Below are positions 14,894-41,927 of a stretch of 64,000 bases of DNA, one piece after another; the stretch's first letter is position 1, and each line of letters starts with the position of its first letter. A program made the position numbers and the translations under genes. The DNA is from Halorussus salinus (lineage in GTDB: Archaea > Halobacteriota > Halobacteria > Halobacteriales > Haladaptataceae): positions 62,001-126,000 of the forward strand of contig NZ_SBIS02000014.1 of assembly GCF_004765815.2 (NCBI RefSeq), read 5' to 3'. Under the pieces are notes generated by a model that was given only the letters and a program-made list of their open reading frames with translations, made no database searches and had not been told where the DNA came from.

Positions 14894-16507
<1,614 letters not shown>

Positions 16508-20006: not shown

Positions 20007-20188
20007 ACACTGCCTTCCGGAGGGCCGACTAATAAGTTTTGCACCGACGGGGTCGGCGTCGGCCCCGCGTCGCTCCGAGGTTCGAGGAGGTCGCGTGCGT
20101 TCGTACTACCTGCAAAAATCACTAACAAATGTTATAAATATATTTAACTTGCTCGAATAGATGTATCGAAGTGGAGAGTTCGGATTCC

Positions 20189-24327: not shown

Positions 24328-24702
24328 ATGGAAGAAATTAGCACCGACGACGCACCGCCGAGCATCGGTCCGTTCTCGCAGGCGATTCGGGACGGCGACC
24401 GCATCTACGTCTCCGGGCAGGGTCCCATCGACCCCGAGACTGAGGAGATAATCGAGGGCGACGTACGCGACCAGACTGCCCGGACGCTCGAAAACGTCGA
24501 GGCGGTCCTCGACGCCGCGGGGAAGTCCCTCGACGACGTGGTGAAGGCCACCGTCTTCGTGATGGACATGGACGACTACGACGACATCAACGACGTGTAC
24601 GGCGAGTACATGTCCGCCCCGTACCCCGCCCGGAGCGCCGTGCAGGTCGAGGATTTGCCCGTGGACATCGACGTGGAGATAGAAGTCGTCGCCTCGGCCT
24701 GA
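24328..24702 (+). CDS. RidA family enamine/imine deaminase
   Basis: The product is 124 residues, the normal size. Motifs YVSGQGPIDP, TLENVEAVL, the conserved Arg in YPARSAVQV and the C-terminal IEVVA mark the YjgF/YER057c/UK114 family. RidA hydrolyses reactive 2-aminoacrylate-type enamines/imines released by PLP-dependent ammonia-lyases. Its presence fits the PLP enzyme at 38952-40154. It is convergent with anmK, the two stop codons being directly adjacent. Confidence 0.93.
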   Translation: MEEISTDDAPPSIGPFSQAIRDGDRIYVSGQGPIDPETEEIIEGDVRDQTARTLENVEAVLDAAGKSLDDVVKATVFVMDMDDYDDINDVYGEYMSAPYPARSAVQVEDLPVDIDVEIEVVASA

Positions 24703-25917: not shown

Positions 25918-26158
25918 GGCGCACTCCTCCCGGAAATCGGTTCGCAGGTGAACTGTCTTCGCATGGCCGTAGGTGTTCGTTCGGCCGTCTTGGGTGTTTC
26001 CCCGAGCGGTCGCCTCCGGGCGACCGCTCCCGAACGACCACCACACAGTGACTACCTGTCTCTCGGAGGGACGGTTGCTTTACCTAAGGACAACACCTAT
26101 AGGAACATATATAGGTACCAGTAGTTTTATGTCAAAAAGCCCTGAGTACGAATTGTGC

Positions 26159-28168
26159 ATGGTTAACAGCAGCCATAACAGCAGTGAGAGCAGTAGTCCT
26201 CACAGGTTCTCTCGCCGACAGTTACTGGCGTACGCCTCCGGCGCGGCCTCGGTCGGACTCGCCGGGTGTAGCGGCAGTGACCCGGACGACAGCAGCGTGC
26301 TGACGACCACGGAAGGCGACACCCAAACCACGTCCGGAACGGACGGCGGCGACTCCACGAGCGAGGAGTCCTCCGGCGGAACCCCCGTCACGACCGAGAT
26401 AACGGTGCGCAAGCCCGTGAGTTGGACGCCGAGCGACGCCAACGTCAACCCCTTCTCGACCCAGAGCGACTTCGAGTACTGGGCGGAGTACATGTGGTGG
26501 GAGTCGCTGGTCTACCCGAACGCGACGGGCGAGCCGATGTGGTGGCTGGCCGACGACATCCGCCTCGAAGGCGGCGGTTGTAACGTGGTCATCGACCTCA
26601 AGGAGGACTACACGTGGTGGGACGGGACGCCGGTCACGGCCGACGACGTGTACACGGCCCAGATGATAAGCACCTACCAAGAGTACGGCGGTCCCGACCA
26701 GACCGACAACGAGTGGGTGGTCGAAGACGACTACACGATTCGCAACGAACTCGCCGGTCCCGCGAACCCCGACATCGAGAAGTCCGAGTACTTCGGCCTC
26801 GTCGCCAAGCAGGACTACTTCCAGTCGTGGCTCGACAAGTTCGAGGACGCGAGCGGCGAGGACGCGGTCAACAGCGTGGCTCAGAACCTCAACGAACACA
26901 AGATAACGCTGGAAGATCTCCGGAAGGAAGGACTCGGTTGCGGGATGTGGCAACCCACGCAGTTCGACCCGACCGAGGTCACCCACAAGAAGTACGAAGA
27001 CCACCCGCGGGCCGACTGGACGAACCTCGACACGTTCCACTGGGCGCTGGTCGCGGACAACCAGAAGTCGATTCAGGCGCTCCAGTCCGGGCGCTTCGAC
27101 CTCGGCGACAAGATGATAACGCAGGTCGAGCAGAACGACGACCTCGACGTGTTCAGCCAGTTCTCCATCGGCGGCGTCCCGAAACTCGCCATCAACTTCG
27201 AGAACAAGCACCTCGCGCGCCGCCCGGTCCGACGCGCGATGGCGTACCTCGTGGACCACGAGGAGATAGTCCAAGTCATCAAGGGGTCGCACGGACAGGA
27301 CTACAACGTCCACCGCGGCAACATGGGGATGTCCTCGACGCTCGCCGACCAGTGGCTCTCGGACGGATTCCGGGACAAACTCATCGACTACGGCTTGAAG
27401 TCGAAACCGGAGAAGGCCGCGCAGGTCATGCGGGACGCCGGGTACAGCAAGAACGGCAATCGGTGGGTCGGTCCCGACGGCGACAAAGTGGAGGGACTCC
27501 AGTACCTCACGCCGCCGTGGCCCATCTACGAGACGGTGGGCAAGTACCTCAGCCCGAAACTCAAGGAGTTCGGCTTCGGGAACAAACTCATCGTCCCGTC
27601 GGGCAGTAGCTTCTGGAAGACGTGGACCGAGACGCACAAGTTCGACATGTGCAACTGGTACACCTACGCCTCCCACCCGGCCTACGCGTTCGGGACCTCG
27701 GGCGTCGCCGCGCTCGGGAAGTACAGTCCCCACAAGAAAAGTAGCGGGGAACCACCCGAAGGCTGTACCGTGGACCGGGCGACGCCGGAACTCAAGCAGG
27801 ACCACAGCGCGAAGCTCAACCACCCGCTTCGGCCGAAGTTCCCGAAGAAAGTCGGCAAGAAGAAGCTCGGTGGCGCGAGCGGCCAGACGCTCTACCCGTT
27901 CAAGTGGAGTAGCATCATGACCCAGACCCAAGAGGAGCAGGAGGTCCGGGACCTCACCGAGAAGTTCGTCTGGTTCCACAACTATCAGGTGCCCCACATC
28001 GGCTTCTACGAGGAGACCAAGACCTACTGGGGCAAGACGGACAAATACGACTTCCCGAAGCCCGACGAGGTGGACGGCCATCCGCAGGCGGAGGCGACCA
28101 TGAACGAACACACGACCACGGCGATGGAGTTCTTCGTCAAGGGGCACATCAACGCGAAGACGGAGTAA
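26159..28168 (+). CDS. Dipeptide/oligopeptide-type ABC transporter substrate-binding lipoprotein
   Basis: The product is 669 residues from the ATG at 26159; an in-frame ATG at 26129 is possible. TATA-like CATATATAGG lies at about 26106-26115. A Tat motif (FSRRQLLAY) and a lipobox with Cys 37 (GLAGC) anchor it to the outside of the membrane. A Ser/Thr/Asp tether (about 38-80) precedes a family 5 (DppA/OppA) binding domain (VDLKEDYTWWDGTPVTADDV-like signature, RRPVRRAMAYLVDHEEI). It is longer than DppA (about 530). It would deliver peptides or glycopeptides, possibly muropeptides, to the permease encoded at 30723-35524. A T-rich terminator follows. Confidence 0.9.
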   Translation: MVNSSHNSSESSSPHRFSRRQLLAYASGAASVGLAGCSGSDPDDSSVLTTTEGDTQTTSGTDGGDSTSEESSGGTPVTTEITVRKPVSWTPSDANVNPFSTQSDFEYWAEYMWWESLVYPNATGEPMWWLADDIRLEGGGCNVVIDLKEDYTWWDGTPVTADDVYTAQMISTYQEYGGPDQTDNEWVVEDDYTIRNELAGPANPDIEKSEYFGLVAKQDYFQSWLDKFEDASGEDAVNSVAQNLNEHKITLEDLRKEGLGCGMWQPTQFDPTEVTHKKYEDHPRADWTNLDTFHWALVADNQKSIQALQSGRFDLGDKMITQVEQNDDLDVFSQFSIGGVPKLAINFENKHLARRPVRRAMAYLVDHEEIVQVIKGSHGQDYNVHRGNMGMSSTLADQWLSDGFRDKLIDYGLKSKPEKAAQVMRDAGYSKNGNRWVGPDGDKVEGLQYLTPPWPIYETVGKYLSPKLKEFGFGNKLIVPSGSSFWKTWTETHKFDMCNWYTYASHPAYAFGTSGVAALGKYSPHKKSSGEPPEGCTVDRATPELKQDHSAKLNHPLRPKFPKKVGKKKLGGASGQTLYPFKWSSIMTQTQEEQEVRDLTEKFVWFHNYQVPHIGFYEETKTYWGKTDKYDFPKPDEVDGHPQAEATMNEHTTTAMEFFVKGHINAKTE

Positions 28169-28775: not shown

Positions 28776-30386
28776 CTACTCGTCGTCCCCGCTCTCCCCC
28801 GGCGGAACTTCGCCGTTCACCTCGAAGTCGGCGGTCGCCAACTCGCCTTCGCCGACTCGGACCTTCCGGACCCGCGGTCCCGCGACCTCGCCGGGCGCGA
28901 GTTGGACGTGGTACCGGCCGGGGTCGGCGGCCACGACGCCGAACCAGCCGTTGCCGGTGGTGGTCGTCTCGCGGACGATTTCGCCCTTCGCGCGGAGTTG
29001 CACCGTGACGCCCTCGATTGGCTCGCCGTCGCGGTCCGTGACCACGCCAGCGACGTGGGCCTCGCGTCGCTTCCACGGCATGTCGGGCACCTCGGCGGCG
29101 TCGGCGAACGCCGGGGACTCGTCGCTCTCGGGCGGCGACTCGGTGAGCGCGTCCGCCAACTCGTCGCGGCCCTCCTCGGGCGTCGCGTCGCCCGACAGCA
29201 CCGCGTCGGAGGGGTTCGCGTAGGAGTAGCCGACCCACCCGGCGGTGTCGTTGCCCTCGTCACCGGCCGAGAGGGCGGCCCGAATCAGGTCGAGGTTGTC
29301 GCCGAGGTCGTTGAGGTAGAGCGCCGACCCGACCGCCACGTCGCGGTCGTACTGGTGGTTCGCCGCGAAGTCGGCCCAGTCGCGGAACATCTGCGAGTCG
29401 CCGCCCCGCTTGTAGTTCATCGGCTGATTCACGTCGAGGATACCCTCCTCCATCCACGAGGGCCAGTCCTGTAGCACTTGGAAGTACGCGCCGGTCGCCT
29501 CGAACCCGCCGTCGCGGGCCTGCGGTCCCTTCCACCACGTGATGGTGTCGGCGCTGACCCGCACCGACGGGTCGGCGTCGAAACACTCCAGATAGATGCG
29601 CCGGACGAGGTTCGTCACCTGCTGTCGTCGCCACGCTTCCCACTCGTCGTCGGTGTGGTCGGGCGTGTCGTCGCGGCCGGTCTCCTCGCGGAAGCGTTCG
29701 AGCGCGACCTCGTTGTAGCCCCAGACCTGATACAGCGCCTCGGCGGGCGTTGGGTACCGAATGTAATCGAGGTTGATGCCGTCCACGTCGTAGTTCTCCA
29801 CGATGCTCCGAGCGGTCCGCGCGAGGTAGTCGGCCGCGCCGGGGTGGCCGGGGTCGAAGTAGTATTTGTCGTCCTGCTGGACCGCGCCGTCCTCGCGGAC
29901 GCTGACCCACGGGTCGTCGCTGTCCGGGCCGTGGCGGTTGAAGACGTGTTCCTCGGACTCGGGCGGCTCGGCGTCGTTCCACATCTGGTTGACGACCATC
30001 CACGCGTCCACCTCGATGCCCGCGGCGTGGGCTTCTTCCACGAGTGTCTCCAGCGGGTCGAACCCGTCGGCGATGTCGGCCTCGGTTCGGGGCGGGAGCG
30101 CCTCGTCGCCGAAGAAGTCCGCGCGCCGGACGACCTCCGCGACGATGACGTTGAGGTTGGCGGCCTTCGCTTCGGCGACGAGATTCGACACCTGCTCGGG
30201 CGTGTAGAGGCCGTCGTTGAAGGCATCGACCCAGTAACCGCGGAACTCCTCTGTCGATTCGTTGGCGTCGGCGTTCGCGTCGGCATCGTCGTTCGCCTCG
30301 GCCGTGGCGATTGCATTCGGTGCGACCGCGAGCGCCGCGGTACCCGCGCCGACACCCTTCACGAAGTCGCGTCGGTTCGCCGTCAC
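28776..30386 (-). CDS. Exported family-10-like glycosyl hydrolase (GHL10/FenI type) with C-terminal beta-sandwich
   Basis: The product is 536 residues from the GTG at 30386, which places the Tat motif (NRRDFVKGVG) at the N-terminus; an upstream ATG at 30557 with a TATA-like element 26 bases before it would add a basic 57-residue extension. The barrel (about 45-430) has EFRGYWVDAFNDG, NLNVIVAEVVRRADFF, GIEVDAWMVVNQMWN, YDVDGINLDYIRYPTP and ILDVNQPMNYKRGGDS, as in the UPF0748/GHL10 family (YngK). Residues about 450-525 are a carboxypeptidase-regulatory-like beta-sandwich (GVVTDRDGEPIEGVTVQL). It likely cuts an extracellular glycan; in bacteria the family is tied to cell-wall glycans. Confidence 0.85.
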   Translation of the reverse strand: MTANRRDFVKGVGAGTAALAVAPNAIATAEANDDADANADANESTEEFRGYWVDAFNDGLYTPEQVSNLVAEAKAANLNVIVAEVVRRADFFGDEALPPRTEADIADGFDPLETLVEEAHAAGIEVDAWMVVNQMWNDAEPPESEEHVFNRHGPDSDDPWVSVREDGAVQQDDKYYFDPGHPGAADYLARTARSIVENYDVDGINLDYIRYPTPAEALYQVWGYNEVALERFREETGRDDTPDHTDDEWEAWRRQQVTNLVRRIYLECFDADPSVRVSADTITWWKGPQARDGGFEATGAYFQVLQDWPSWMEEGILDVNQPMNYKRGGDSQMFRDWADFAANHQYDRDVAVGSALYLNDLGDNLDLIRAALSAGDEGNDTAGWVGYSYANPSDAVLSGDATPEEGRDELADALTESPPESDESPAFADAAEVPDMPWKRREAHVAGVVTDRDGEPIEGVTVQLRAKGEIVRETTTTGNGWFGVVAADPGRYHVQLAPGEVAGPRVRKVRVGEGELATADFEVNGEVPPGESGDDE

Positions 30387-30722
30387 GCCGACCACCGACC
30401 CGCGGTCCGCCCGGTGATGGGTCCGGTTGGCCGAGATTCGGTGTGACGGGGTTCGGCGTGGCGGGGTTCGGTGTGGCAGAGTTCGGCGTGACGGATTCCG
30501 GAATCGGAGCGTCGGCGAGTCGATACTGGCGGCTTCTCGTTGCTTGCTAACATCCAAAGCGATATTTTCGCTCTTTCTTGATAAAGATTCCCAAGGTTTA
30601 AATCCGGAATCGAACGTCGGTCCCCGACGACCGACTTCCGCCGACGAGAGCGCGCCGCTCGACCACCCACGGTAACATAGGCCATAGTTTTATAACCGGC
30701 GACCAATCATTGACACGATAGC
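30387..30722. other. Intergenic region with divergent promoters
   Basis: It contains a 15-bp tandem repeat (30425-30499), an AT-rich stretch at about 30555-30605 and the rightward permease promoter (TTTTATAAC at about 30687-30695). The part to 30557 is open in frame with the leftward hydrolase. Confidence 0.5.
30425..30499. repeat. 15-bp tandem repeat, five units
   Basis: Units start at 30425, 30440, 30455, 30470 and 30485, with consensus GGYGTGRCGGGGTTC; the last three differ by few bases. On the minus strand they read as repeats of the type HTEPRHAEP in the possible N-terminal extension of the hydrolase. This looks like slippage rather than a binding site. Confidence 0.75.
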
Positions 30723-31748
30723 ATGTCGTATTACCTCAAGCGGATAGGGCAATCAGTGGTGGTCTTCTTCGTCACGGTCACCGCGACGTTCGCCCTCTAC
30801 CGCATGCTACCCTTCGGCCCGGTCGAGATGATGCGGGTCAACCTGATGAACCAACTCGTCCAGCAGGGGAGTCCGACCCCACAGCAGGTCGAGAAGATAA
30901 ACCGGATGGTCGAAGCGTACACGGGCATCAACCCCGACAAGCCGTGGTACGTCGCGTACTACGAATATCTCCACGATATCGTCCTCTATCAGGACTTCGG
31001 GGTCTCCATCGTCAAGCGCGAACCCGTCTTCGACATCCTCTTCGAGGCGATGCCGTGGTCGCTGTTCATCAGCATCTACGGTCTCGCGCTCGGGACGACG
31101 GTCAGCCTACTCCTCGGGGCGGCGATGGCCTACACCGAGGGGAGCCGCTTCGACACCGGCATGACCATCTTCTCCATCCTCAACACGACGATTCCCTACT
31201 ATATCGTCGCCATCGTCGCACTCATCGTCTTCTCGTTCAATTTGGGGTGGTTCCCCAGCGGGGGCCGCATGACCCAAGGCACCACGCCGGGGTTCAACTA
31301 CCCCTTCATCGCGGGCATCGTGGAACACGCCGCGCTCCCGATTCTCTCGTCGTTCGTCGCTGGCTTCGGGGGCGCGCTGGCGTTCCGAGGTAACTGCATC
31401 CGTGAGATGGGGAAAGGCTACATCCGCCTCGCGCGACTCCGGGGCATCAGTCAGGGCCGCATCGCGATTCGCTACGTGGGCCGCAACGCGCTCCTACCGG
31501 TCTACACCAGCATCATGATGGGCATCGCCAGCCTGTTCGGGAGCAGTATCATCCTCGAAACCATCTTCAACTACCCCGCGATGGGGTTCGTCACCTTCGA
31601 GGCGCTGATGGACCGCGACTACCCGCTCATCATGGGGTCGTTCGTCTTCTTCACGAGTCTGACCCTGCTGGGCATCCTCGTCGCCGACCTGACCTACGGT
31701 ATCATCGACCCGCGCGTCAAGGGAGGTGCCGAACGTGAGAGCTACTGA
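30723..31748 (+). CDS. Dipeptide/oligopeptide ABC transporter permease, DppB type
   Basis: The product is 341 residues. The N-terminal YLKRIGQSVVVFFVTVTATF helix and the large outside loop before TM2 (about 30-105) are typical of DppB. About six membrane helices follow. The EAA loop that contacts the ATPase is seen as GKGYIRLARLRGISQGRI (about 225-242). TATA-like TTTTATAAC lies about 30 bases upstream. The stop overlaps the start of the second permease. It pairs with DppC-, DppD- and DppF-type proteins encoded downstream. Confidence 0.92.
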   Translation: MSYYLKRIGQSVVVFFVTVTATFALYRMLPFGPVEMMRVNLMNQLVQQGSPTPQQVEKINRMVEAYTGINPDKPWYVAYYEYLHDIVLYQDFGVSIVKREPVFDILFEAMPWSLFISIYGLALGTTVSLLLGAAMAYTEGSRFDTGMTIFSILNTTIPYYIVAIVALIVFSFNLGWFPSGGRMTQGTTPGFNYPFIAGIVEHAALPILSSFVAGFGGALAFRGNCIREMGKGYIRLARLRGISQGRIAIRYVGRNALLPVYTSIMMGIASLFGSSIILETIFNYPAMGFVTFEALMDRDYPLIMGSFVFFTSLTLLGILVADLTYGIIDPRVKGGAERESY

Positions 31749-32859
31749 CGACGACACCCCGAGCGACGACACGCCGACGCGAGACGACGATTCTGGACGC
31801 GATGTGCGGACCGACGGCGGTCTGGACGACGGGGGCGATGCACGAACCGACGGCGGCACGGGCGACGAGACCGTCTTCACCCGAACCTCGGACGTGCCGA
31901 CGCTCACGAGACGCGAGAAGGCCCGCCGAACCTTCGACCGGCGAATCTACGCGCCGCTGGCGGTCCTCGTCCGCGACTGGCGCGCGGTCGTCGGCGGGAC
32001 CATACTCGTGACCTTCCTTCTGACCGGCCTCGTCGCGTGGGTCTCGGCCTCGAACTGGTGGCTCCTCGAAAGCGTCGTGTTGGTCGAACAGCCCTCCGTC
32101 ATGGAAGGCCCCATCTTCACGCCGCCGTTCCAGTCGATGGCGTACCCCCTCGGGACCGGCGTGATGGGCAAATCCATCTTCGAACAGCTCGTCCACGCCG
32201 CACCCGCGATGATACAGATGATTCTGGCGGGGGCGCTCCTCTCGGTGACTATCGGCACGCTCATCGGGACCGTCGCGGGCTACCGCGGCGGTGCCATCGA
32301 CAAGGTGCTAATGTCGCTAACCGACGTGGTGCTGACGATTCCCGGTATCGCGCTCATCATCGTCCTCGCGGCCATCTGGGAGCCGCGCAGTCCGCTCATC
32401 GTCGGCCTCCTGCTCGGCATCGACAACTGGCCGCGGCTCGCGCGGACCATCCGGTCGGAAGTGCTGTCGGTCCGCGAGGAGTCCTTCACCGAGGCCTCCC
32501 GCATCATGGGTCTCTCGCAGTTCACCATCCTCCGACGGGACATCATCTCGAACCTGATGCCGTACATCTCCATCAACTTCGCCAACGGCGCGCGGACCAT
32601 CATCTTCGAGTCGGTCGCGCTGTACTTCCTCGGCATCCTGCCGTTCACCACGCTCAACTGGGGCGTGATGATGAACGAGGCGTACAACGGGGCGGACCTG
32701 ACGAACCCCTCACAGCTCCACTGGCTGTTCGCACCGATGCTGACCATCGCGGTCGTTTCGCTCGGATTCATCCTGTTCGCGCAGGGGCTGGACCGCATCT
32801 TTAACGTCCGTCTCCGGGCGCGACACGAGAGTACGACCGCGGACGCCGAATCACAATGA
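31735..32859 (+). CDS. Dipeptide/oligopeptide ABC transporter permease, DppC type
   Basis: The product is 374 residues from the GTG at 31735, chosen because GGAGGTG at about 31720-31726 gives proper Shine-Dalgarno spacing; a GTG at 31726 is the alternative. An acidic, Thr-rich cytoplasmic tail of about 60 residues precedes TM1, longer than in bacterial DppC. The EAA loop (ESFTEASRIMGLSQFTILRR, about 245-264) and the C-terminal helices fit the family. It overlaps the DppB gene by 14 bases. Ribosome-site use here contrasts with the leaderless first genes. Confidence 0.9.
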   Translation: MRATDDDTPSDDTPTRDDDSGRDVRTDGGLDDGGDARTDGGTGDETVFTRTSDVPTLTRREKARRTFDRRIYAPLAVLVRDWRAVVGGTILVTFLLTGLVAWVSASNWWLLESVVLVEQPSVMEGPIFTPPFQSMAYPLGTGVMGKSIFEQLVHAAPAMIQMILAGALLSVTIGTLIGTVAGYRGGAIDKVLMSLTDVVLTIPGIALIIVLAAIWEPRSPLIVGLLLGIDNWPRLARTIRSEVLSVREESFTEASRIMGLSQFTILRRDIISNLMPYISINFANGARTIIFESVALYFLGILPFTTLNWGVMMNEAYNGADLTNPSQLHWLFAPMLTIAVVSLGFILFAQGLDRIFNVRLRARHESTTADAESQ

Positions 32860-33037
32860 CGATGCCACGACAGCTTCCACGACCGACAACCGAGTCGAAC
32901 CGCACCCGACCCGGCCGAGACGACCGGGGCAACCGGCGCGACCGAACCGGCCGACAGAACCGAATCGGCCGCCGCGACCGGCCGACCGGCCGAGCCGACT
33001 GCCATAGATATAAGTTCCCCACGGGAAAGGGTGACAC

Positions 33038-33307
33038 ATGGCGATGAACGACGACGCCAAGCAGGGCTACCGAGTCGAGGACGACCACGGGCCGCTGGTC
33101 CGACTGTCGCTGGCGGTCCGGAGTTCGTTCCTCGCGTTCGTGGCGACGCTCGGGGTGGTGTTCCTCCTGTTGGCGTTGCTCCTCTCCGAACACGTCCCCG
33201 TACTCACGCACGGCGTCCTCTCGGGGATGCTCGCGGTGTTGAGCGCGAGTGCGTTCCTCTACGCCGCGTTCGGCCACCTCGCGCTCCGGCTCATCGGGTA
33301 CCGCTGA
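33038..33307 (+). CDS. Small two-helix membrane protein inside the ABC operon
   Basis: The product is 89 residues. Two hydrophobic segments (about 29-50 and 58-80) follow a charged N-terminus. No family is recognised. It has its own TATA-like element (AGATATAAG, about 33006-33014), giving a leaderless start at 33038. It sits between the permease and ATPase genes, 26 bases before the first ATPase, so it could be an accessory subunit of this transporter. That role is inferred from position only. Confidence 0.75.
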   Translation: MAMNDDAKQGYRVEDDHGPLVRLSLAVRSSFLAFVATLGVVFLLLALLLSEHVPVLTHGVLSGMLAVLSASAFLYAAFGHLALRLIGYR

Positions 33308-33333
33308 CGCAGACGACAACGACGACTACAATC

Positions 33334-34392
33334 ATGGCTTCACGAATCCAGACGAACGCGGCCGAGGAGGACCCCGACGAGGAGGTCGTCCTCGAAGTCC
33401 GCGACGCGAACGTATCGTTCGACATGAGTCGAGGCGAGTCCCGCGTCCTGCGGGACGTGGACCTACAGGTCCGGCGGGGCGAGACGATCGGTATCGTCGG
33501 CGAGTCGGGGTCGGGCAAGTCGATGCTCGCGTCGGCGATGCTCGACGCCGTCGTGGACCCCGGCCAGTTGAGCGGGGAGGTCATCTTCCACCCCGACGAG
33601 GGCGACCCGGTGGACGTGCTGTCGCTGTCCGAGCGCGAACAGACCGAACTGCGCTGGAACGAGATTTCGTTCGTCATTCAGGCGGCCCAGAGCGCGTTCA
33701 ACCCGACGATGACCGTCGGCGCGCACTTCGAGGAGACACTGCGCGCCCACGACCGGGACGTGACCGAAGGGATGGAGAGCGCGACCGAGTTGCTGGAAGA
33801 CCTCTATCTGCCCGCCGACCAAGTGCTTCGCTCCCATCCCCACGAACTCTCGGGCGGGCAGAAACAGCGCGCGCTCATCGCGCTGAGTCTCATCCTCGAA
33901 CCGAGCGTGCTGGTGATGGACGAGCCGACCGCCGCGCTCGACCTGCTGATGCAGCGGTCCATCATCAGCCTCCTCGCCGACTTGAAGGAGAAGTACGACC
34001 TGACGCTGGTATTCGTCACCCACGACCTGCCGCTGGTCGCGGACATCGCCGACCGCCTCGCGGTGATGTACGCCTTCGAACTCGCGGAGGTCGGCCCGAC
34101 CGACGCCGTGGTCGAGGACCCCGCCCACCCCTACACGCGGGCGCTCCTGAAGGCCGTGCCGAACGTCTCCGACGAGGAGATAGAGGTCGCGGGCATCTCG
34201 GGAGCGAGTCCCGACCCGGTGAACGTCCCGGAGGGGTGTTCGTACCACCCGCGGTGTCCGCTGGCCGACGACGAGTGTCGGCGCAACGACCCCGACTTCG
34301 AGTCGGCGGGCGAGGACCACGAAGTGACCTGTTTCCACTGGGAGGACGCCGCCGACGAGATTCCCCTCGACACGGGAGGGAACGATGAGTGA
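33334..34392 (+). CDS. Dipeptide/oligopeptide ABC transporter ATP-binding protein, DppD type
   Basis: The product is 352 residues. The ABC motifs are complete: Walker A GESGSGKSM, signature LSGGQKQRALIALSL, Walker B VLVMDEPTAALD and the His switch in FVTHDLPLVADI. The C-terminal oligopeptide extension carries the Cys pattern CSYHPRCPLADDEC...C. The last bases overlap the next ATPase ATG by 8. It powers uptake through the DppB/DppC-type channel. The ATG at 33334 gives the usual distance to Walker A. Confidence 0.93.
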   Translation: MASRIQTNAAEEDPDEEVVLEVRDANVSFDMSRGESRVLRDVDLQVRRGETIGIVGESGSGKSMLASAMLDAVVDPGQLSGEVIFHPDEGDPVDVLSLSEREQTELRWNEISFVIQAAQSAFNPTMTVGAHFEETLRAHDRDVTEGMESATELLEDLYLPADQVLRSHPHELSGGQKQRALIALSLILEPSVLVMDEPTAALDLLMQRSIISLLADLKEKYDLTLVFVTHDLPLVADIADRLAVMYAFELAEVGPTDAVVEDPAHPYTRALLKAVPNVSDEEIEVAGISGASPDPVNVPEGCSYHPRCPLADDECRRNDPDFESAGEDHEVTCFHWEDAADEIPLDTGGNDE

Positions 34393-35524
34393 AGACGACC
34401 GAGCGACCGCGGGCGACCGCGCAACGGCGACCGAGAACCGAGACCCCGTGGTCAGCCTCGACGACGTGGAGGTCCACTTCACGAAGGAGCGACTCCTCGG
34501 ACTCGCGGGGTCCGAGACGGTCCGGGCAGTAGACAGCGTCTCCTTCGACGTGTACGAGAACGACGTGGTGGCGCTGGTCGGCGAGTCGGGATGCGGCAAG
34601 ACCACGCTCGGCAAGACCGCCATCGGCGTCCAGCGACCGACCGGCGGCACCCTGCGCTACCGCGGACAGGACGTGTGGGCGACGAAGGACGACGGCCCGC
34701 CGGAGGGCGGCTACACCCACGACGAGATTCGCCGCGCGCTCCAGATAATCCACCAAGACCCCGGTAGCTCGCTGAACCCTAACTACACCGTCAGGTCGGC
34801 GCTGGCCGCGCCGCTGAAGCAGTGGCGCTCGGACATGAGCGAGGCCGACCGGCAGGCCCGCATCTACGGCCTGCTGGAGTACGTCGGGATGACGCCGCCG
34901 AGCGACTACGCCGAGCGGTACCCCCACCAGCTCTCGGGCGGCGAGCAACAGCGGGTGGCGCTCCTCCGGGCGCTGTTGATGAACCCGGACGTGATTCTGG
35001 CCGACGAAGCTGTGTCGGCGCTGGACGTGTCCCTGCGCGTCGAGATGATGGACCTCTTTCTCGAACTCCAAGACGAGTTCGACACCTCCTACGTCTTCAT
35101 CTCCCACAACCTCGCCAACGCGAAGTACCTCACCCAGAAGGCGGGCGGACGCATCGGCATCATGTATCTGGGTGAACTCGTGGAGATAGGCACGCCCGAG
35201 CAGATAATTCACAACCCTCAGCACCCCTACACGAAGGTTCTGCTCTGGGCGACCGCCGACGTACACAGCCACGGCGAGGTCGAGGAGCCCCCGGTTCGGT
35301 CGCTCGACATCCCGGACCCGGCGGACCCGCCCTCGGGCTGTCGGTTCCACACGCGCTGTCCGGAGGCCCGCGAGGCCTGCAAGCGCACCAGTCCGGAACT
35401 GGCCGACGACGGCGACGGGCGGCGCACCGCCTGTTTCCGCACCGACGAGGACCACGAGTACTGGGACAGCGACCCGCTCGAAGACGAGGAAGACGACGTG
35501 CAGATGAACGCGCTCTCGGACTGA
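34385..35524 (+). CDS. Dipeptide/oligopeptide ABC transporter ATP-binding protein, DppF type
   Basis: The product is 379 residues. Motifs: Walker A GESGCGKTT, signature LSGGEQQRVALLRAL, Walker B VILADEAVSALD with Ala-Val where Pro-Thr is usual, and the His switch FISHNLANA. The C-terminal oligopeptide domain has Cys at CRFHTRCPEAREAC. It forms a heterodimer with the preceding ATPase. The set (binding protein, two permeases, two ATPases) is complete within the window. Confidence 0.93.
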   Translation: MSEDDRATAGDRATATENRDPVVSLDDVEVHFTKERLLGLAGSETVRAVDSVSFDVYENDVVALVGESGCGKTTLGKTAIGVQRPTGGTLRYRGQDVWATKDDGPPEGGYTHDEIRRALQIIHQDPGSSLNPNYTVRSALAAPLKQWRSDMSEADRQARIYGLLEYVGMTPPSDYAERYPHQLSGGEQQRVALLRALLMNPDVILADEAVSALDVSLRVEMMDLFLELQDEFDTSYVFISHNLANAKYLTQKAGGRIGIMYLGELVEIGTPEQIIHNPQHPYTKVLLWATADVHSHGEVEEPPVRSLDIPDPADPPSGCRFHTRCPEAREACKRTSPELADDGDGRRTACFRTDEDHEYWDSDPLEDEEDDVQMNALSD

Positions 35525-35548: not shown

Positions 35549-36220
35549 CTACTGTTCTCCCGCGACGAGACTCCGTAGTTCGGTCAGCCGGTCGATTTCG
35601 TACGTCGGCTCCTCGGGGAGGCTGTATCCGTCGCGGTGCGGGCGGCGGACGAACGCCGAGTCGAGACCCGCCTCGCTGGCCGCGAGTACGTCCGCGGCGC
35701 TGTCGCCGACGTAGAGCGCCGAGCGCGTGCCGAGGTCGTCCAGCGCGCGTTCGAGGTAGTGGGTCTCGGGCTTCATCCGCCGGAACCCCTCGACGGTGGG
35801 GTCGCGGCCGTAGACCGCCCCGAAGTGGTCGCCGAGGTCGAACTCTTCGACCATGAACGCGATGGTCTCGTGCTGGTTGTTCGAGACGATGCCGAGGTCG
35901 TGGCCTTTCGCGAGCGCCGGAAGGACCGAACAGTCGTCGTAGAGGTCGCGCTCGCCCCGCTCCATCATCCCCTGTTGGAGCTTCGAGACGCGACGCTCGC
36001 GCTCGGGCCAGAACTCCTCGAAGGCGACGCCGTGGCGCTCGCAAACCGCCCGCATCTCCGGGACCGCGGCGGTGCCGAAGAAGGCGTCTCGCTCCTCGGG
36101 AGTCGGGTCGGCGTCGAACGCGCGGAACGTCTCGGCGACGGCTTCGCCGTACACGTCGGGGTGGTCGGCGTGCCGACGCAGGAGGACGCCGTCCACGTCG
36201 AACACGACGGAATCGTACAT
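35549..36220 (-). CDS. HAD-superfamily phosphatase
   Basis: The product is 223 residues. HAD motifs: VVFDVDGVLL with the nucleophile Asp near residue 9, GIVSNNQ (motif II), MKPETHYLERAL with Lys (motif III) and YVGDSAADVLAA (motif IV). The helical cap between about 18 and 85 is of the phosphoglycolate-phosphatase/beta-phosphoglucomutase type. It probably dephosphorylates a small sugar phosphate. It is convergent with the ABC operon and divergent from the Zn-dehydrogenase. Confidence 0.88.
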   Translation of the reverse strand: MYDSVVFDVDGVLLRRHADHPDVYGEAVAETFRAFDADPTPEERDAFFGTAAVPEMRAVCERHGVAFEEFWPERERRVSKLQQGMMERGERDLYDDCSVLPALAKGHDLGIVSNNQHETIAFMVEEFDLGDHFGAVYGRDPTVEGFRRMKPETHYLERALDDLGTRSALYVGDSAADVLAASEAGLDSAFVRRPHRDGYSLPEEPTYEIDRLTELRSLVAGEQ

Positions 36221-36360: not shown

Positions 36361-37380
36361 ATGCGAGCAATCGTTACCGACGGCGACGGCGAGGTCTGGG
36401 AGGAGCGACGCGAGCGACCCGAACCGGCCCCCGGCGAGGCGCTGGTCAGGATTCGAGCGGTCGGCATCTGTGGGAGCGACCTCGGTCTCGTGGAAGGGGA
36501 GGGACCGCCGTGGACCGACTACCCGCTGGTTCCGGGTCACGAGGTCTGCGCCGAGGTCGTGGAGTTGGGCGAGGAGGTCTCGGACCTCTCGGTGGGCGAC
36601 CGCGTGGCGCTCCACGGGTTCGTCTACTGCGGGACCTGCACGCCCTGCCGGGAGGGCCGCTACTACCAGTGCGACGACCTGAAGGAGGTCGGGTTCACCA
36701 TCGACGGCGGCTACCGGGAGTACGCCGCGCTCCCCGCCTACACGCTGACGCCGATTCCCGACGCCATCTCCGACGAGGAGGCGTGCCAGATAGACTCGGC
36801 GGCCTGCACGCTCCACGCGATGAAGCGCGTCGAGACCGACGTGACCGACACCGCCGCGGTCCTCGGGCCGGGGTCGCTCGGCCTCTACGGCGTCCAGTTG
36901 CTCCGCGCGCGCGGCGTCGAGGACGTGATTCTGACAGGCACTCGGGACGAACGACTCGAAGTCGGGGCGGACCTCGGCGCGAACCGCACGGTCAACGTCC
37001 GCGAGGAGGACCCCGTGGCCGCCGTCGAGGAGTACACCGACGGCGAGGGCGTCGATATCTGTGTCGAGGCGGCGGGCGCTGGCGACGTGGTGGACACCTG
37101 CCTCCAGATAGCGAAAAAGCGCGGGAGCGTCGTCCTGACGGGCGTGTTCGGCGAGCGCAAGGAGATAGACCCCAACCACATCGTCTCGAAGGAGTTGGAA
37201 GTCGTCGGGGGCGTCACCGCCTCCCACGCGGTCGAAGACGTGATAGAACTGTTCCGGCGGGGCGACCTCACCACCGAGGGCGTCGTGACCCACGAGTTCC
37301 CGCTGGCCGACTACGATGACGCGCTCGACGCCGTGCGGGAACGCCGCGACGGCGTCATCAAGGCGGTTCTGCGGCCCTGA
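36361..37380 (+). CDS. Zinc-containing medium-chain alcohol/polyol/sugar dehydrogenase
   Basis: The product is 339 residues. Catalytic zinc ligands are Cys 37 (GICGSD) and His 60/Glu 61 (PGHEV). The structural zinc set is Cys 90, 93, 96 and 104. The cofactor fold is at about 165-200, with GPGSLGLYGVQLLRARG in place of the standard GxGxxG spacing. Relatives include threonine, sorbitol and glucose dehydrogenases. TATA-like TTTTAAG lies at about 36321-36327. In this setting it could oxidise an amino sugar or the D-lactate side product, but the substrate is unproven. Confidence 0.9.
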   Translation: MRAIVTDGDGEVWEERRERPEPAPGEALVRIRAVGICGSDLGLVEGEGPPWTDYPLVPGHEVCAEVVELGEEVSDLSVGDRVALHGFVYCGTCTPCREGRYYQCDDLKEVGFTIDGGYREYAALPAYTLTPIPDAISDEEACQIDSAACTLHAMKRVETDVTDTAAVLGPGSLGLYGVQLLRARGVEDVILTGTRDERLEVGADLGANRTVNVREEDPVAAVEEYTDGEGVDICVEAAGAGDVVDTCLQIAKKRGSVVLTGVFGERKEIDPNHIVSKELEVVGGVTASHAVEDVIELFRRGDLTTEGVVTHEFPLADYDDALDAVRERRDGVIKAVLRP

Positions 37381-37455
37381 TTCGGACGCGTAGTTCGCCA
37401 CCGGGAGTCGGATTTCGCGGCAATCCTTTTCTATCGTGCGTCTGAAGTTACCCTC

Positions 37456-38850
37456 ATGACAGGTGCTTCGGGGTCGCCGAGACGGACGTTCGAGTGGATA
37501 GACGACGCGATTCCCCGCTACGAGTCGTTCTTCACGGTCGAGGAACACCGCGAACGCGGCCGGGCGCTCGCGGCCGACCGCGACCATGTCGAGTACGAGG
37601 AGTGCGGCGAGAGCGCGGGCGGCGAGACGCTGTGGGCGGTCACCGTCGGCGAGGGGAGTCGAAGCGCGCTCCTGTTCGGTGCGCCCCATCCGAACGAACC
37701 CATCGGGTCGATGACCATCGACTTTCTCCTTCACGAACTCGCAACGAACGACGAGTTGCGAGCGTCGCTCGACTACGAGTTCGTCTGCGTGCCGGTCGCC
37801 GACCCGGACGGCGTGCGACTGAACGAAGGCTGGTTCGACGGCCCGTTCACGCTCTCGAACTACGCGCTGAACTTCTACCGGACGCCACCGGACGAGCAGG
37901 TCGAGGCGACCTTCCCAGTCGAACGCGAGGACTACTCCTACGACGACCCGACGCCGAAGACGCGGATGCTCGCCGACTTCATCGAGACGCATCGCCCCGA
38001 GTTCATCTACAGCTTCCACAACGCGGCGTTCGGCGGCTGTTACTACTACCTCACCGAACCTCTCGAACCGCTCCACGACGCGCTCGCGTCGCTCCCCGAG
38101 GAGTACGGCGTGCCGCTCCATCGGGGCGAAGCGGAGAAGTTCGACGCGGAGCAGTACGACAACGCTATCTACCAGCTCTGGACCTTCGCGGACATGTACG
38201 AGGACACACGGGACGGCGACGAGGACTCCGAAGACGCGCTCATCGGCGGCAACGCCTACGATTACGCCAGCCGGTTCGAAGACGACGTATTGGAGTTCGT
38301 CGTGGAATTGCCGTACTTTCACGACCCGCGGATCGGGGACCGGACGGAACTCGACCGCACCCGCGAGGAGGTCATCCGCGAGGGAGTCCGGCACCGACAG
38401 ACGCTCGCCGAGGAGATGCGGCGAGGTGTCGAGGCCGTCGCCGAGTACCTCCCGGACACGCCGATGGCGCGGGAAGCGGAGGGTGCCGTCTACCACTTCG
38501 AAGACGAGTACGAGGCGAAGTTGGAGTGGGCCGAGTCGGCCGCCGAGACCGACGAGTCGGCGACCGTCGCACAGCAGATAGACGAGCGGTTCCTCAAGCA
38601 GTACCACCTGCTGACCTATCTCGGCATGCTGTTGCGGTCCATCGACCACGCCGCGATGAGCGCCGACGAGGAGGCCCGCGAGACGCTGGTCGAGACGAAG
38701 GCCGCGCTCGAAGACGCCTTCCACGAGCGAATCGGCGAGATGCGCGACCACCTCGATTACGAGACGATTCCGATATGGAAACTCGTCGCGATTCAAGCCC
38801 GTGCGGGACTCCTCTGTCTGGACTACAGACAGAATCGAACCGACACGTAA
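37456..38850 (+). CDS. M14-family zinc carboxypeptidase
   Basis: The product is 464 residues. The zinc site is HPNE (His 78, Glu 81) plus His 188 in YSFHNAAFGG, and the catalytic Glu is Glu 284 in FVVELPYF. A helical C-terminal region (about 300-464) is an extra. No signal peptide is seen, so it works in the cytoplasm on imported peptides. M14 enzymes include MpaA-type peptidases that cut the gamma-D-Glu-diaminopimelate bond of murein tripeptide; position supports that idea but the motifs do not prove it. Confidence 0.87.
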   Translation: MTGASGSPRRTFEWIDDAIPRYESFFTVEEHRERGRALAADRDHVEYEECGESAGGETLWAVTVGEGSRSALLFGAPHPNEPIGSMTIDFLLHELATNDELRASLDYEFVCVPVADPDGVRLNEGWFDGPFTLSNYALNFYRTPPDEQVEATFPVEREDYSYDDPTPKTRMLADFIETHRPEFIYSFHNAAFGGCYYYLTEPLEPLHDALASLPEEYGVPLHRGEAEKFDAEQYDNAIYQLWTFADMYEDTRDGDEDSEDALIGGNAYDYASRFEDDVLEFVVELPYFHDPRIGDRTELDRTREEVIREGVRHRQTLAEEMRRGVEAVAEYLPDTPMAREAEGAVYHFEDEYEAKLEWAESAAETDESATVAQQIDERFLKQYHLLTYLGMLLRSIDHAAMSADEEARETLVETKAALEDAFHERIGEMRDHLDYETIPIWKLVAIQARAGLLCLDYRQNRTDT

Positions 38851-38864
38851 TCCGAGAGCCAAAC

Positions 38865-38910
38865 TATAGATTGTTTAAAGATAGAATAATACGTCTATAA
38901 GTAATCTATA
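38865..38910. terminator. AT-rich inverted repeat between convergent genes
   Basis: TATAGATT (38865-38872) and AATCTATA (38903-38910) are perfect eight-base arms in a strongly AT-rich gap between two convergent genes. This may act as a two-way terminator; T-runs are short. Confidence 0.35.
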
Positions 38911-38951
38911 AGAGTCTTTCGTGCGGACGCGAAGTCGAACCGCGACGGCCG

Positions 38952-40154
38952 CTACAGGTTCGCCCGGATGCGCTCAACCGCGTAGTCGGCTTCCTCGTCG
39001 GTGAGACACATCGGGTTCACGGTGAACGTCGATTCGTGGAGGCCGTCGGCACCGACGTAGACGCGAGGCTCCTCGCGCCGGAGCGCGGCCACGAGGTCGG
39101 CCGCGGCGGCGTCCGCGTCGCTCAGGTCCGCCACCACCTCGGGCGCGACGGCGGTCTTCTCAGCGCCGGTAATCGAGCAGGCGACGCCCTCCGACTCCGC
39201 GAGTCGGTCGGCGACGCGCTCGGCGCGCTCGCGCCACTCCGCGACCAGCGCGTCGTGGTCCTCTTCGAGGAACAGTTCGAGGGCTTTGATGAGGCCCGCT
39301 AACTCCTCTTTGCCGACCTTCATCGGGCGGCCGATGCCCTGCCGGGGCACGCCGTCGAGGTCGCTCACGTCCACCAGCGACTCGGGCGGTTCGTACGCCT
39401 CGCTGGCCGCGTGCATGTCGAGGTGCTGGAGCGCCGCCGACTTCACGAGGTCCGACCGGCCAGCGAGAATCCCCGTCGATTGGGGGCCGCGAATCGCCTT
39501 CCCGCCGCTGAACACCACGAGGTCCGCGCCCAAATCCACGAAGCGTTCGAGGTTCGAGGCGGGCGGCAGTTCAGCGGCGGCGTCCACGATGACGGGCACG
39601 TCGTGGTCGTGAGCGATGTCGACTACCGTTTCGAGGGGCGGTTGCGTGTAGGGCTTCTGGACGTAGGCGACGGCGGCGGTCTCCTCGGAGATGGCGTCGG
39701 CGTACTCCCACGGTTCGACGTTCGTCGCGCCGGTCCCGAGGTGGTAGTCGTTCGTGCCCACGTCCACGATGTCGGCCCCGGCGGCCCGGAGCGCGTGGTC
39801 GTAGCCGGTGCGGTGGGTGCGGGCCATCACGATTTCGTCCGCCACGCCCTCGGTGTCGGGCAGTCGCGCCATCGTTCCGGGGTCGTCGCCCGCGATGGCC
39901 GCCGCCGCGCCGAGGGTCATCGCCGCCGCCGCCCCGCTGGCGACGTAGCCCGCGTCGGCCCCGGTCGCGTCGGCCACGAGGTCGCTCGCCCGCGCTTGCA
40001 GGTCCGAGATGCGCGCGAAGCCGGTCGCGGCGTCGGCCATCGCCTCGACGGCCTCCTCGCGGATGAGACTGCCGCCGATACGGGTCTTCGTCCCGGCGGC
40101 ATTGATAACCGCTGGCACGCCTAGCTCGTCGTAGATGTCGGGTGTCTCCGGCAT
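38952..40154 (-). CDS. PLP-dependent SelA/DgaE-like enzyme, possible glucosaminate ammonia-lyase
   Basis: The product is 400 residues. The fold type I pattern of the SelA-like branch is clear: INAAGTKTRIGGSL, YVASGAAAAMTL, VIVDAAAELPP and the PLP Lys 219 in VVFSGGKAIRGPQSTGIL. Members include D-glucosaminate-6-phosphate ammonia-lyase (DgaE), which yields a keto-deoxy sugar acid and ammonia through an enamine. The presence of RidA, a PIG-L deacetylase and sugar dehydrogenases in the island fits this, but the sequence only fixes the superfamily. Selenocysteine synthase is unlikely because the rest of that system is not seen here. Confidence 0.85.
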   Translation of the reverse strand: MPETPDIYDELGVPAVINAAGTKTRIGGSLIREEAVEAMADAATGFARISDLQARASDLVADATGADAGYVASGAAAAMTLGAAAAIAGDDPGTMARLPDTEGVADEIVMARTHRTGYDHALRAAGADIVDVGTNDYHLGTGATNVEPWEYADAISEETAAVAYVQKPYTQPPLETVVDIAHDHDVPVIVDAAAELPPASNLERFVDLGADLVVFSGGKAIRGPQSTGILAGRSDLVKSAALQHLDMHAASEAYEPPESLVDVSDLDGVPRQGIGRPMKVGKEELAGLIKALELFLEEDHDALVAEWRERAERVADRLAESEGVACSITGAEKTAVAPEVVADLSDADAAAADLVAALRREEPRVYVGADGLHESTFTVNPMCLTDEEADYAVERIRANL

Positions 40155-40236
40155 AGTTCGATGCGCTCCCGGCGGCTACTAATCGGTTGCGGTGGGACCC
40201 CGGGGGAAGAGAGAGGAGAAAGAGGAGACCGAGGCG

Positions 40237-41232
40237 CTACTCGTCGGGGAGCGCGTCGAGGTAGGCGTTCCACACTGCGTCGTGGTCGTCGGTCCCGATG
40301 GACGAGATGACCCGACAGGCGTCCCAACCCCACATGAAGACGCTGTCTGCGCCGCCCTCGACCGCGATTCGGGTCGCGCGCCGGACCTGCTCGGGTGCGC
40401 CCTCGTCGGGGAGCGCGAACCCCTGAATCCAAATCTGGCTTTCGAGGTCGTACTCGTCGGCCAGCGAGACCACGCGCTCGGTGTACTCGCGGACGAACGG
40501 TTCTAACTCCTCGTCGAAGGCCGCCCAGTAGGGGTCGGTAGCTAGCACGTCGAGGTGGTCGCTCTCGGCCAGCGTCGTCCAGTCGGTCAGTCCGTGTTCG
40601 GCGCTGTCGCCGGGCAGGAGACAGACCGCGTTCTCGGCCCCCTTCTCGCGGACGAGCGCCATCATCTCTTCGAGGAACGAGCGGAGCGACGCCTCTCGGA
40701 ACTCGGCGACGCGCTCGGTCTCGGTCTCGGGCATCGACTCACCGTACTCGTCCTCGAAGCGCTCCCGGCAGGCCCCACACCGACAGGTCCACGCCGAGTC
40801 GGGGACCTCCTCGTCGTGCCACTCGGGCGCGAACCAGTGGGGTTCGTCCCAGAACACCACGTCCGCGCCGAGGTCCACCGCGTCGCGGGTCCACTCGCGC
40901 ACGAACTCCCGAAACGTCGGGTCGTTGAAACAGGCCGCCGGGACGCGCTCGCCGGTCGAGAGCCGCTGGCGGGAATCGGGATTGTGACCGATAAACTCAG
41001 AGAGGGCTTCGCCGCCGAAGACCCGGCCGACGCCCCACGGGTTGACGTAGACGCGCTGGTCGCGCTCGTGGCTCGCCGCCACGAGATCGGCCATCGTCTC
41101 GGCGTAGTACCGCTGGTCGCGCTCGCTGAAGGTGTGCAACACCGCGTCGAGACCGCGGTCGGCGAACCGGTCCAAGTCCCGTTCGGCGTGTCGCGGGTCG
41201 CGGACGCCGAAGTAGCTGGTTCCTTTTTCCAT
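40237..41232 (-). CDS. Predicted TIM-barrel glycoside hydrolase-like protein with Cys cluster
   Basis: The product is 331 residues. A (beta/alpha)8 pattern is visible (TSYFGVRDPRHAERDL, GLDAVLHTFSERDQRYY, RVYVNPWGVGRVFGG, DVVFWDEPHWF, LDVLATDPYWAAFD, IWIQGFALP, SVFMWGWDA). Asp/Glu pairs sit at strand ends (DEPHW and TDPYW are candidate catalytic positions). A WTCRCGACRERF cluster follows the DEPHW strand, like the one in the 18846-20006 protein. The ATG overlaps the stop of the PIG-L gene by one base (TAATG), so they are cotranslated. No characterised relative is recognised. Confidence 0.7.
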   Translation of the reverse strand: MEKGTSYFGVRDPRHAERDLDRFADRGLDAVLHTFSERDQRYYAETMADLVAASHERDQRVYVNPWGVGRVFGGEALSEFIGHNPDSRQRLSTGERVPAACFNDPTFREFVREWTRDAVDLGADVVFWDEPHWFAPEWHDEEVPDSAWTCRCGACRERFEDEYGESMPETETERVAEFREASLRSFLEEMMALVREKGAENAVCLLPGDSAEHGLTDWTTLAESDHLDVLATDPYWAAFDEELEPFVREYTERVVSLADEYDLESQIWIQGFALPDEGAPEQVRRATRIAVEGGADSVFMWGWDACRVISSIGTDDHDAVWNAYLDALPDE

Positions 41233-41927
41233 TACAGATACTCCCGCGCGGACTCGTGGAGTGGGTCGAAGCCCTCCGCGAATCGCGCGCCGGTGCGCTT
41301 GCCGAGGACGCGGGCCTCCGCGCGGACGCCCTCCATCAGATGCTCGAACTCCGCGTCGATGCCGCCGTGTTCCTGCAGGAACTCGACCTGCGACTCGTGG
41401 CAGTCGATGGCCTCCTCTTTCTGGTCCTGATACCCGGTCACGTCCACGAAGACCGACGGCTCGAACTCGGCGGTCGGCTTGCCGAAGAAGTAGACGTTGT
41501 CGGGGTCGTGGGGCGGATGCTCCGTCTCCACGAGCGGGAGCGAGGCCATGTAGTAGGCGTCGGTGACGAGCCGCGAGGAGGCCCGGTGGTCCGGGTGCAT
41601 GTCCTCGCGGTAGTGGGTCAGGATTACGTCGGGTTCGTACTCCCGAATCACGTCCACGAGCGCGAGGCGGTGGTCGAGCGAGTAGGTGACCCGGCCGTCC
41701 CGGAAGTCGAGGAAGGCCGCCTCGGCCCCGAGCGTCCGGGCGGAGGCGCGGGCCTCCTCTTCCCGGACGGCCGCGACTTCCGCTTCGGTCGCGTCGAGAC
41801 CGCCGTACTCCCCGCGCGTCAGGTGGACGATTGCTACGTCGTCTCCTCGGTCGGCGTGCTTGGCCAGCGTCCCGCCGCAGAAGATGTCCGCGTCGTCGGG
41901 ATGTGCGACTATGGCTAACACTCTCAT
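41232..41927 (-). CDS. PIG-L/LmbE-family N-acetylglucosamine deacetylase
   Basis: The product is 231 residues. Zinc motifs are AHPDDADIFCGGT (about 8-20) and HYREDMHPDHRA (about 98-109). The family removes acetyl groups from GlcNAc-containing molecules; in Thermococcales a member deacetylates diacetylchitobiose during chitin use. TATA-like TTTTATAC at about 41953-41960 predicts a leaderless start at 41927. It forms an operon with the TIM-barrel gene. With the GH18 chitinase and NagZ it could channel GlcNAc to glucosamine. Confidence 0.9.
   Translation of the reverse strand: MRVLAIVAHPDDADIFCGGTLAKHADRGDDVAIVHLTRGEYGGLDATEAEVAAVREEEARASARTLGAEAAFLDFRDGRVTYSLDHRLALVDVIREYEPDVILTHYREDMHPDHRASSRLVTDAYYMASLPLVETEHPPHDPDNVYFFGKPTAEFEPSVFVDVTGYQDQKEEAIDCHESQVEFLQEHGGIDAEFEHLMEGVRAEARVLGKRTGARFAEGFDPLHESAREYL

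Follow-up and report, generated by a model that had tools for sequence, protein, structure and literature searches.

Peptidoglycan salvage, to which the enzymes NagZ, NamZ and AnmK belong, proceeds through NagZ, AmiE and NamZ in Bacillus and through AnmK, MurQ, NagA and NagB in E. coli. Here we consider a related gene set in an archaeon. It lies in a 64,000-nucleotide stretch of Halorussus salinus DNA (the window; positions 62,001 to 126,000 of NZ_SBIS02000014.1, contig C9 of the genome that we call G000), where the segment 36361-41927 appears, on balance, to be the amino-sugar end of a peptidoglycan-scavenging island of about 29 kb (13187-41927; Table 1) with a proposed phosphate-free route for N-acetylglucosamine (GlcNAc). 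The island has NagZ, NamZ, AnmK, an S12-family protein and a dipeptide-type importer in common with the bacterial salvage systems, but the genome is without MurQ, NagA and NagB and has oxidative amino-sugar enzymes instead.

Several described systems resemble parts of this locus. For the chitin clusters of Natrarchaeobius, a route from GlcNAc through glucosaminate to the Entner-Doudoroff pathway was predicted in 2025, with phosphate assumed (PMC12343721); that paper includes GH171 among its listed carbohydrate-active enzymes, and the word "peptidoglycan" never occurs in it. The Natrarchaeobius cluster is like the island in having a CE14 deacetylase, a glucose dehydrogenase, a DgaE-like enzyme, RutC/RidA, IclR and GH3. 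It is, however, built around chitinases, and the scheme of its authors runs through a 6-phosphate, whereas the island has NamZ, NagZ, AnmK and an Opp-type importer and has lost the phosphate ligands. In Pseudoalteromonas, the conversion of glucosaminate to 2-keto-3-deoxygluconate (KDG) by the Ong pathway (OngB/OngC/OngD) is biochemically proven, and RidA is essential in vivo (PMC9537276). Judging from that paper, the likeness to the island is one of function: deacetylation, deamination of unphosphorylated glucosaminate to KDG by a pyridoxal phosphate (PLP) enzyme and a need for RidA. The protein families are nevertheless different, with a D-aminoacylase-like deacetylase and a PLP enzyme annotated as a D-amino-acid deaminase; moreover, the sugar enters as pre-oxidised GlcNAc1A and the cluster has no C1 dehydrogenase. 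Mycobacteria are reported to use N-acetylmuramic acid (MurNAc) without MurQ and with an as yet unknown enzyme for cleaving its lactyl ether (PMC6572805, PMC13041923); MurQ has been called the sole known enzyme for that cleavage (PMC6572805). The two cases are alike in that MurNAc metabolism is deduced without MurQ, but the mycobacterial gene is unidentified whereas the island gathers candidate genes at one locus. Finally, archaea were recently shown to secrete bactericidal peptidoglycan hydrolases, and whether bacteria are their rivals or their food has been posed as a question (PMC12352652). Our literature search, which left subscription journals outside its reach, returned nothing on MurNAc catabolism or on intracellular peptidoglycan catabolism in the haloarchaea.

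The salvage genes of the island are rare but tightly linked among the haloarchaea. Our comparative sample comprises 194 haloarchaeal genomes, at best half of the known species, and all co-occurrence counts and chance figures given here ignore kinship. NamZ is present in ten of these genomes, from nine genera, and AnmK in exactly the same ten, the two genes lying 3-17 kb apart; identical sets of this kind have a chance probability of 6e-17. Searches for MurQ, NagB and NagA were positive in bacterial controls, but MurQ and NagB exceed their cut-offs in none of the 194 genomes and NagA does so in two, both from one genus and neither of them G000. What weak MurQ matches there are consist of short SIS-domain matches, nearly all in open reading frames of at least 600 amino acids, as one would expect of GlmS. 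A first-pass annotation of the segment had remarked that MurQ, NagA and NagB were not seen, and this holds genome-wide, none of the three being over cut-off in G000. The ten NamZ regions all have TIM1 (a TIM barrel without a Pfam match), an IclR regulator and, within the genome, an ortholog of the enolase-superfamily enzyme (on a different contig in genome G073). Each also has an Opp-type importer, whose similarity varies between regions, and most have NagZ, a creatininase-family enzyme and RidA. In genomes G026, G160 and G073 the AnmK gene and a HAD phosphatase gene share a four-base overlap, an arrangement that would suit the recovery of free MurNAc from its 6-phosphate, the task of AnmK and MupP in Pseudomonas.

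With respect to the amino-sugar end, the genes named in the first-pass annotation (PIG-L, a Zn-dehydrogenase, a SelA/DgaE-like PLP enzyme, RidA and an LLM-type oxidoreductase) are all recognisable by family cut-offs or by close relatives; for the PLP enzyme, the nearest named relative at the locus is a Halorussus amylolyticus protein with 87% identity. RidA, although genuine, lies outside the segment in which it had been placed, at 24328-24702, and both TIM2 (40237-41232) and the M14 peptidase (37456-38850), the latter not conserved across the other nine NamZ loci, had been passed over. The grouping of the first four enzymes was sound. PIG-L, the DgaE-like enzyme, RidA and either the Zn-dehydrogenase (ZnDH) or a glucose dehydrogenase (GDH), often with TIM2, constitute a module (module 1) that recurs without NamZ. 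Within 10 kb of the DgaE-like gene, PIG-L is found at 29 and RidA at 27 of 43 haloarchaeal loci, as against neither at any of 37 loci in the Chloroflexota. An ortholog of ZnDH adjoins the DgaE-like gene on contig C8 of G000 and in genomes G147, G166, G167 and G047, and a haloarchaeal-type GDH takes its place in G123, G082 and G073; the former accompanies the DgaE-like gene in genomes with the LLM enzyme and the latter in those with a short-chain dehydrogenase/reductase (SDR) in its stead. The C8 copy belongs to a second set of PIG-L, TIM2, RidA, ZnDH and DgaE-like genes (G000:C8:23933-38027; L114:8933-10662 and L115:306-3027), which is without NamZ and AnmK and has Gfo/Idh and FAD oxidoreductases nearby.

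Some of our results weigh against this interpretation of the island. The PLP enzyme reaches 201 bits with TIGR01437 (cut-off 385) and 189 bits with a second DgaE-type model (cut-off 600), so its family does not fix its substrate. For ZnDH the nearest models are those of scyllo-inosose and threonine dehydrogenases, all far under cut-off, while PIG-L comes near, but stays below, the cut-off of the bacillithiol enzyme BshB1 (TIGR04001, 167.9 against 182.5 bits), and AnmK is nearer to levoglucosan kinase in the PDB. Genome G026 has NamZ, yet neither a DgaE-like enzyme nor a close PIG-L, so that the peptidoglycan module does not strictly depend on module 1; furthermore, the NamZ-linked DgaE-like proteins are scattered in the tree and form no clade. 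The module could perhaps act on something other than D-glucosaminate, be it an amino acid (a D-amino acid, for instance) or an amino-sugar acid (such as a different 2-amino-2-deoxy aldonate), a view that the family scores leave room for and that also gains from the DgaE-like loci without PIG-L or RidA and from the second copy of the module that this genome carries. We nevertheless judge it rather unlikely, considering the recurrent partnership with PIG-L, RidA and a sugar dehydrogenase, the NagZ and NamZ at this locus, and the chitin-type clusters of Natrarchaeobius (PMC12343721).

Chitin is the other polymer to be considered. GH18 (20171-21826), GH3 and PIG-L would together make a chitin set, with NamZ and AnmK merely incidental, and module 1 does occur in chitinase clusters too (PMC12343721). 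An island devoted to chitin is, however, an unlikely reading of the perfect and close co-occurrence of NamZ with AnmK and of an importer that is of the Opp-type peptide kind and not of the sugar ABC kind. It also fits poorly with the contents of the sister loci. Two NamZ regions contain a diaminopimelate (DAP) decarboxylase over the lysA equivalog cut-off (L089:10214-11503 and L119:10434-11699), possibly catabolic in function, and that of G073 is on the contig that carries this genome's NagZ and enolase genes. DAP decarboxylase serves lysine synthesis as well. An NlpC/P60-SH3 peptidase is found in two NamZ regions and, in one of them (G082), it is beside an L-Ala-D/L-Glu (dipeptide) epimerase-like protein. 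These genes for handling diaminopimelate and D-glutamate point to peptidoglycan rather than to chitin.

The phosphate-free character of the route is suggested by the residues of two of its enzymes. In D-glucosaminate-6-phosphate ammonia-lyase (DGL; PDB 7lc0), Arg301, Arg332 and Arg346 bind the phosphate, His163 is needed for stereospecific protonation, and His162 and His163 are strictly conserved among DGLs (PMC9529869). We have aligned 49 haloarchaeal proteins against DGL. The fold superfamily, the expected beta-elimination type of reaction and the PLP lysine (Lys219 in the window enzyme, invariant in 49/49) are shared, but the scores are far under the family cut-offs. At the two histidine sites the window enzyme has Pro168 and Tyr169, and none of the 49 proteins has His; at the three arginine sites Arg occurs in 0, 0 and 2 of the 49. 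The window enzyme has Glu, Gly and Met at the latter sites according to MAFFT and Ala, Gly and Met according to HMMER; the alignment is uncertain around Arg301, where neither program places an Arg. Since the PLP enzyme and its haloarchaeal kin have lost the arginines with which true DgaE binds phosphate, and its histidines of catalysis as well, the substrate is probably unphosphorylated, and the idea of a true DgaE acting on a 6-phosphate has been rejected on these residues. The description of the LLM oxidoreductase as FGD-like (FGD, F420-dependent glucose-6-phosphate dehydrogenase) calls for correction. The enzyme resembles the F420 alcohol dehydrogenase of archaea more than it does FGD, the nearest PDB entry being 1rhc, and it falls short of the cut-offs of both TIGR03557 (179 of 210 bits) and the FGD model TIGR03554 (139.5 of 420 bits). 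Relative to FGD1 it keeps the F420-site residues H40, W44 and E109 and has S, E and A at the phosphate ligands K198, K259 and R283, in an alignment that is weak over the C-terminal half. An FGD-type oxidation of sugar phosphates therefore finds no support. Taken together, the residues of the LLM and PLP enzymes favour unphosphorylated substrates.

The published alternative, drawn for Natrarchaeobius (PMC12343721), would have a kinase make glucosaminate-6-phosphate and a true DgaE convert it to 2-keto-3-deoxy-6-phosphogluconate. Given the loss of all three arginines and both histidines from the window enzyme, its low DgaE-type scores and the lack of any glucosaminate kinase candidate besides AnmK, a member of a family with anhydro sugars as substrates, we regard a phosphorylated route as improbable here. 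That PIG-L instead belongs to a bacillithiol-like thiol pathway unrelated to amino-sugar use is suggested by its BshB1 score and is most improbable, that score being below cut-off, BshA/BshC-like genes being absent among the scanned window genes, and the PIG-L gene overlapping that of TIM2 by one base and recurring with DgaE-like and RidA genes.

In the phosphate-free route, whose substrates and reactions we infer from the gene content, secreted hydrolases and the Opp-type importer would bring muropeptides into the cell, where cytoplasmic NagZ and NamZ would free GlcNAc and MurNAc. PIG-L would then de-N-acetylate GlcNAc to glucosamine, which ZnDH would oxidise at C1 to D-glucosaminate. From this, the PLP enzyme is proposed to release ammonia and KDG by beta-elimination, with RidA clearing the enamine, and KDG would join the semi-phosphorylative Entner-Doudoroff path; no step up to that point would require a sugar phosphate. 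The sequence from GlcNAc through glucosamine and glucosaminate to KDG had been put forward in the first-pass annotation and is still the best reading, but in outline it had already been published (PMC12343721), and it does not cover the lactyl ether of MurNAc.

MurQ cleaves that ether by an elimination across C2-C3. As the island points to peptidoglycan and the genome has no MurQ, the ether must be broken in some other way. The likeliest course would follow the same oxidative logic as for GlcNAc, with D-lactate leaving C3 by beta-elimination. Tentatively, we suggest that MurNAc may be oxidised at C1 by the LLM enzyme or an SDR, that the enolase-superfamily enzyme or the PLP lyase could then eliminate D-lactate from C3 of the aldonate, and that the amidohydrolase or PIG-L, with RidA, might complete the conversion to KDG. 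Of the ten NamZ loci, five have the LLM enzyme and the remaining five an SDR (1 in 252 by chance), and the SDRs tested score above the cut-off of the NCBI glucose 1-dehydrogenase subfamily; the simplest reading is that the two share one job, the oxidation of the sugar at C1. The enolase enzyme is favoured as the eliminase because G026 keeps NamZ, AnmK, SDR, RidA and the enolase enzyme without the PLP enzyme, and because RidA accompanies the enolase enzyme in operons in which no PLP enzyme was noticed. A NamZ-specific lactate eliminase role for the PLP enzyme is weakened by the same genome and by the lack of a clade among the NamZ-linked copies.

Members of the mandelate racemase subgroup have a KxK motif, three acidic metal ligands and an Asp-His dyad, and the enolase enzyme carries this set: KTK at 165-167, D195, E223 and E249 (assigned as metal ligands from motif positions) and the dyad D272 and H298. 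Its ten best genomes are the NamZ ten, but a strictly NamZ-specific enzyme seems doubtful, the next relatives being 56-61% identical and distant ones occurring in NamZ-free loci of the module 2 type (below). Nor is it supported as an L-Ala-D/L-Glu epimerase: it has Asp at the position aligned with a Lys of the muconate-lactonizing enzyme 3i4k, and a separate epimerase-like gene is present in G082.

TIM1, the enolase enzyme, SDR, RidA, the creatininase-family enzyme, HAD and IclR form a second module (module 2), which recurs without NamZ and AnmK in other haloarchaea. Operon-like examples without NamZ, with creatininase-family, TIM1-like, enolase, SDR, RidA and HAD-IB phosphatase genes, lie at L107:5591-13909, which includes an SBP_bac_1 family binding protein, and at L116:7992-16313. 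A sulfatase gene (L105:12803-14293) adjoins creatininase, TIM1, enolase and SDR genes, which hints at a sulfated amino-sugar substrate for this relative of module 2. For TIM1 and TIM2 (model pLDDT 79 and 76), the matches to glycoside hydrolases are at most fold-level, with TM about 0.6.

Three other features of the window are outside the island. An unusually acidic AAA_23 ATPase is beside small unknown genes (9486-11399); a small protein with a Cys-rich start, resembling an ArsR-type regulator, is followed by a methyltransferase whose CCS-rich N-terminus recalls arsenite methyltransferase (43546-44785); and a cytochrome P450 adjoins a PQQ/PKD beta-propeller protein (45005-46306 and 46633-49071).

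Table 1. Genes of the island, in window coordinates.
Product	Position	Strand	Evidence
IclR-family regulator	13187..13951	+	
Creatininase-family amidohydrolase	14046..14846	+	PF02633 222 bits
GH3 NagZ-type beta-N-acetylhexosaminidase	14894..16507	-	NF003740 213.8 bits (above cut-off 207); motif KHFPGHGD...DSH
NamZ, GH171 exo-beta-N-acetylmuramidase	16509..17675	-	PF07075 262 bits, PF20732 162 bits; NamZ_N and NamZ_C present
F420-type LLM oxidoreductase, proposed C1 oxidation of unphosphorylated sugar	17815..18804	-	PF00296 147 bits; SDR instead in sister loci
TIM1, no-Pfam TIM barrel	18846..20006	-	in 10/10 NamZ loci; fold resembles PgaB C-terminal hydrolase
GH18 with SH3 domain, Tat-secreted	20171..21826	+	
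Enolase-superfamily (mandelate racemase type) enzyme, candidate eliminase/dehydratase of 2-amino aldonate	21931..23046	+	
Serine beta-lactamase (S12) family protein, possible muropeptide amidase/peptidase	23097..24152	-	PF00144 192 bits
RidA enamine/imine deaminase	24328..24702	+	TIGR00004 157 bits, over cut-off
AnmK, anhydro-MurNAc kinase family	24703..25980	-	NF007148 437.7 bits (above cut-off 387)
Solute-binding protein family 5, dipeptide/oligopeptide-type ABC importer	26297..28168	+	
GHL10-family protein, Tat-secreted	28776..30395	-	
Two Opp-type permeases and two ATPases, completing the importer of the 26297..28168 binding protein	30723..35524	+	
HAD hydrolase, possible MupP-like phosphatase downstream of AnmK step	35549..36220	-	
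Zn-dependent MDR dehydrogenase (ZnDH), proposed glucosamine (aldose) 1-dehydrogenase	36361..37380	+	ADH_N 104, ADH_zinc_N 90 bits
M14 peptidase family protein, possibly stem-peptide related	37456..38850	+	PF00246 34 bits
SelA/DgaE-superfamily PLP enzyme, proposed phosphate-free D-glucosaminate ammonia-lyase	38952..40154	-	SelA 32.7 bits, over cut-off
TIM2, no-Pfam TIM barrel, paired with PIG-L	40237..41232	-	fold resembles GH5/GH164
PIG-L / CE14-type de-N-acetylase	41232..41927	-	PF02585 119 bits (above cut-off 28.2); AHPDD, HPDH at 8, 111

What is new here is the absence of phosphate residues from the PLP enzyme, its kin and the LLM enzyme, together with the setting of the amino-sugar genes in a peptidoglycan island. 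These results argue that haloarchaea without NagA and NagB degrade amino sugars oxidatively and without phosphate, and they make the published phosphorylated version less likely. The island also supplies named candidates for cleavage of the MurNAc lactyl ether. Since it apparently serves to import and degrade muropeptides, and is found in several haloarchaeal families, the question of whether bacteria are food or rivals (PMC12352652) becomes directly testable. If the MurQ-free reading is true, the problem of the lactyl ether would have a second chemical answer, and archaea a way to feed on bacterial walls.

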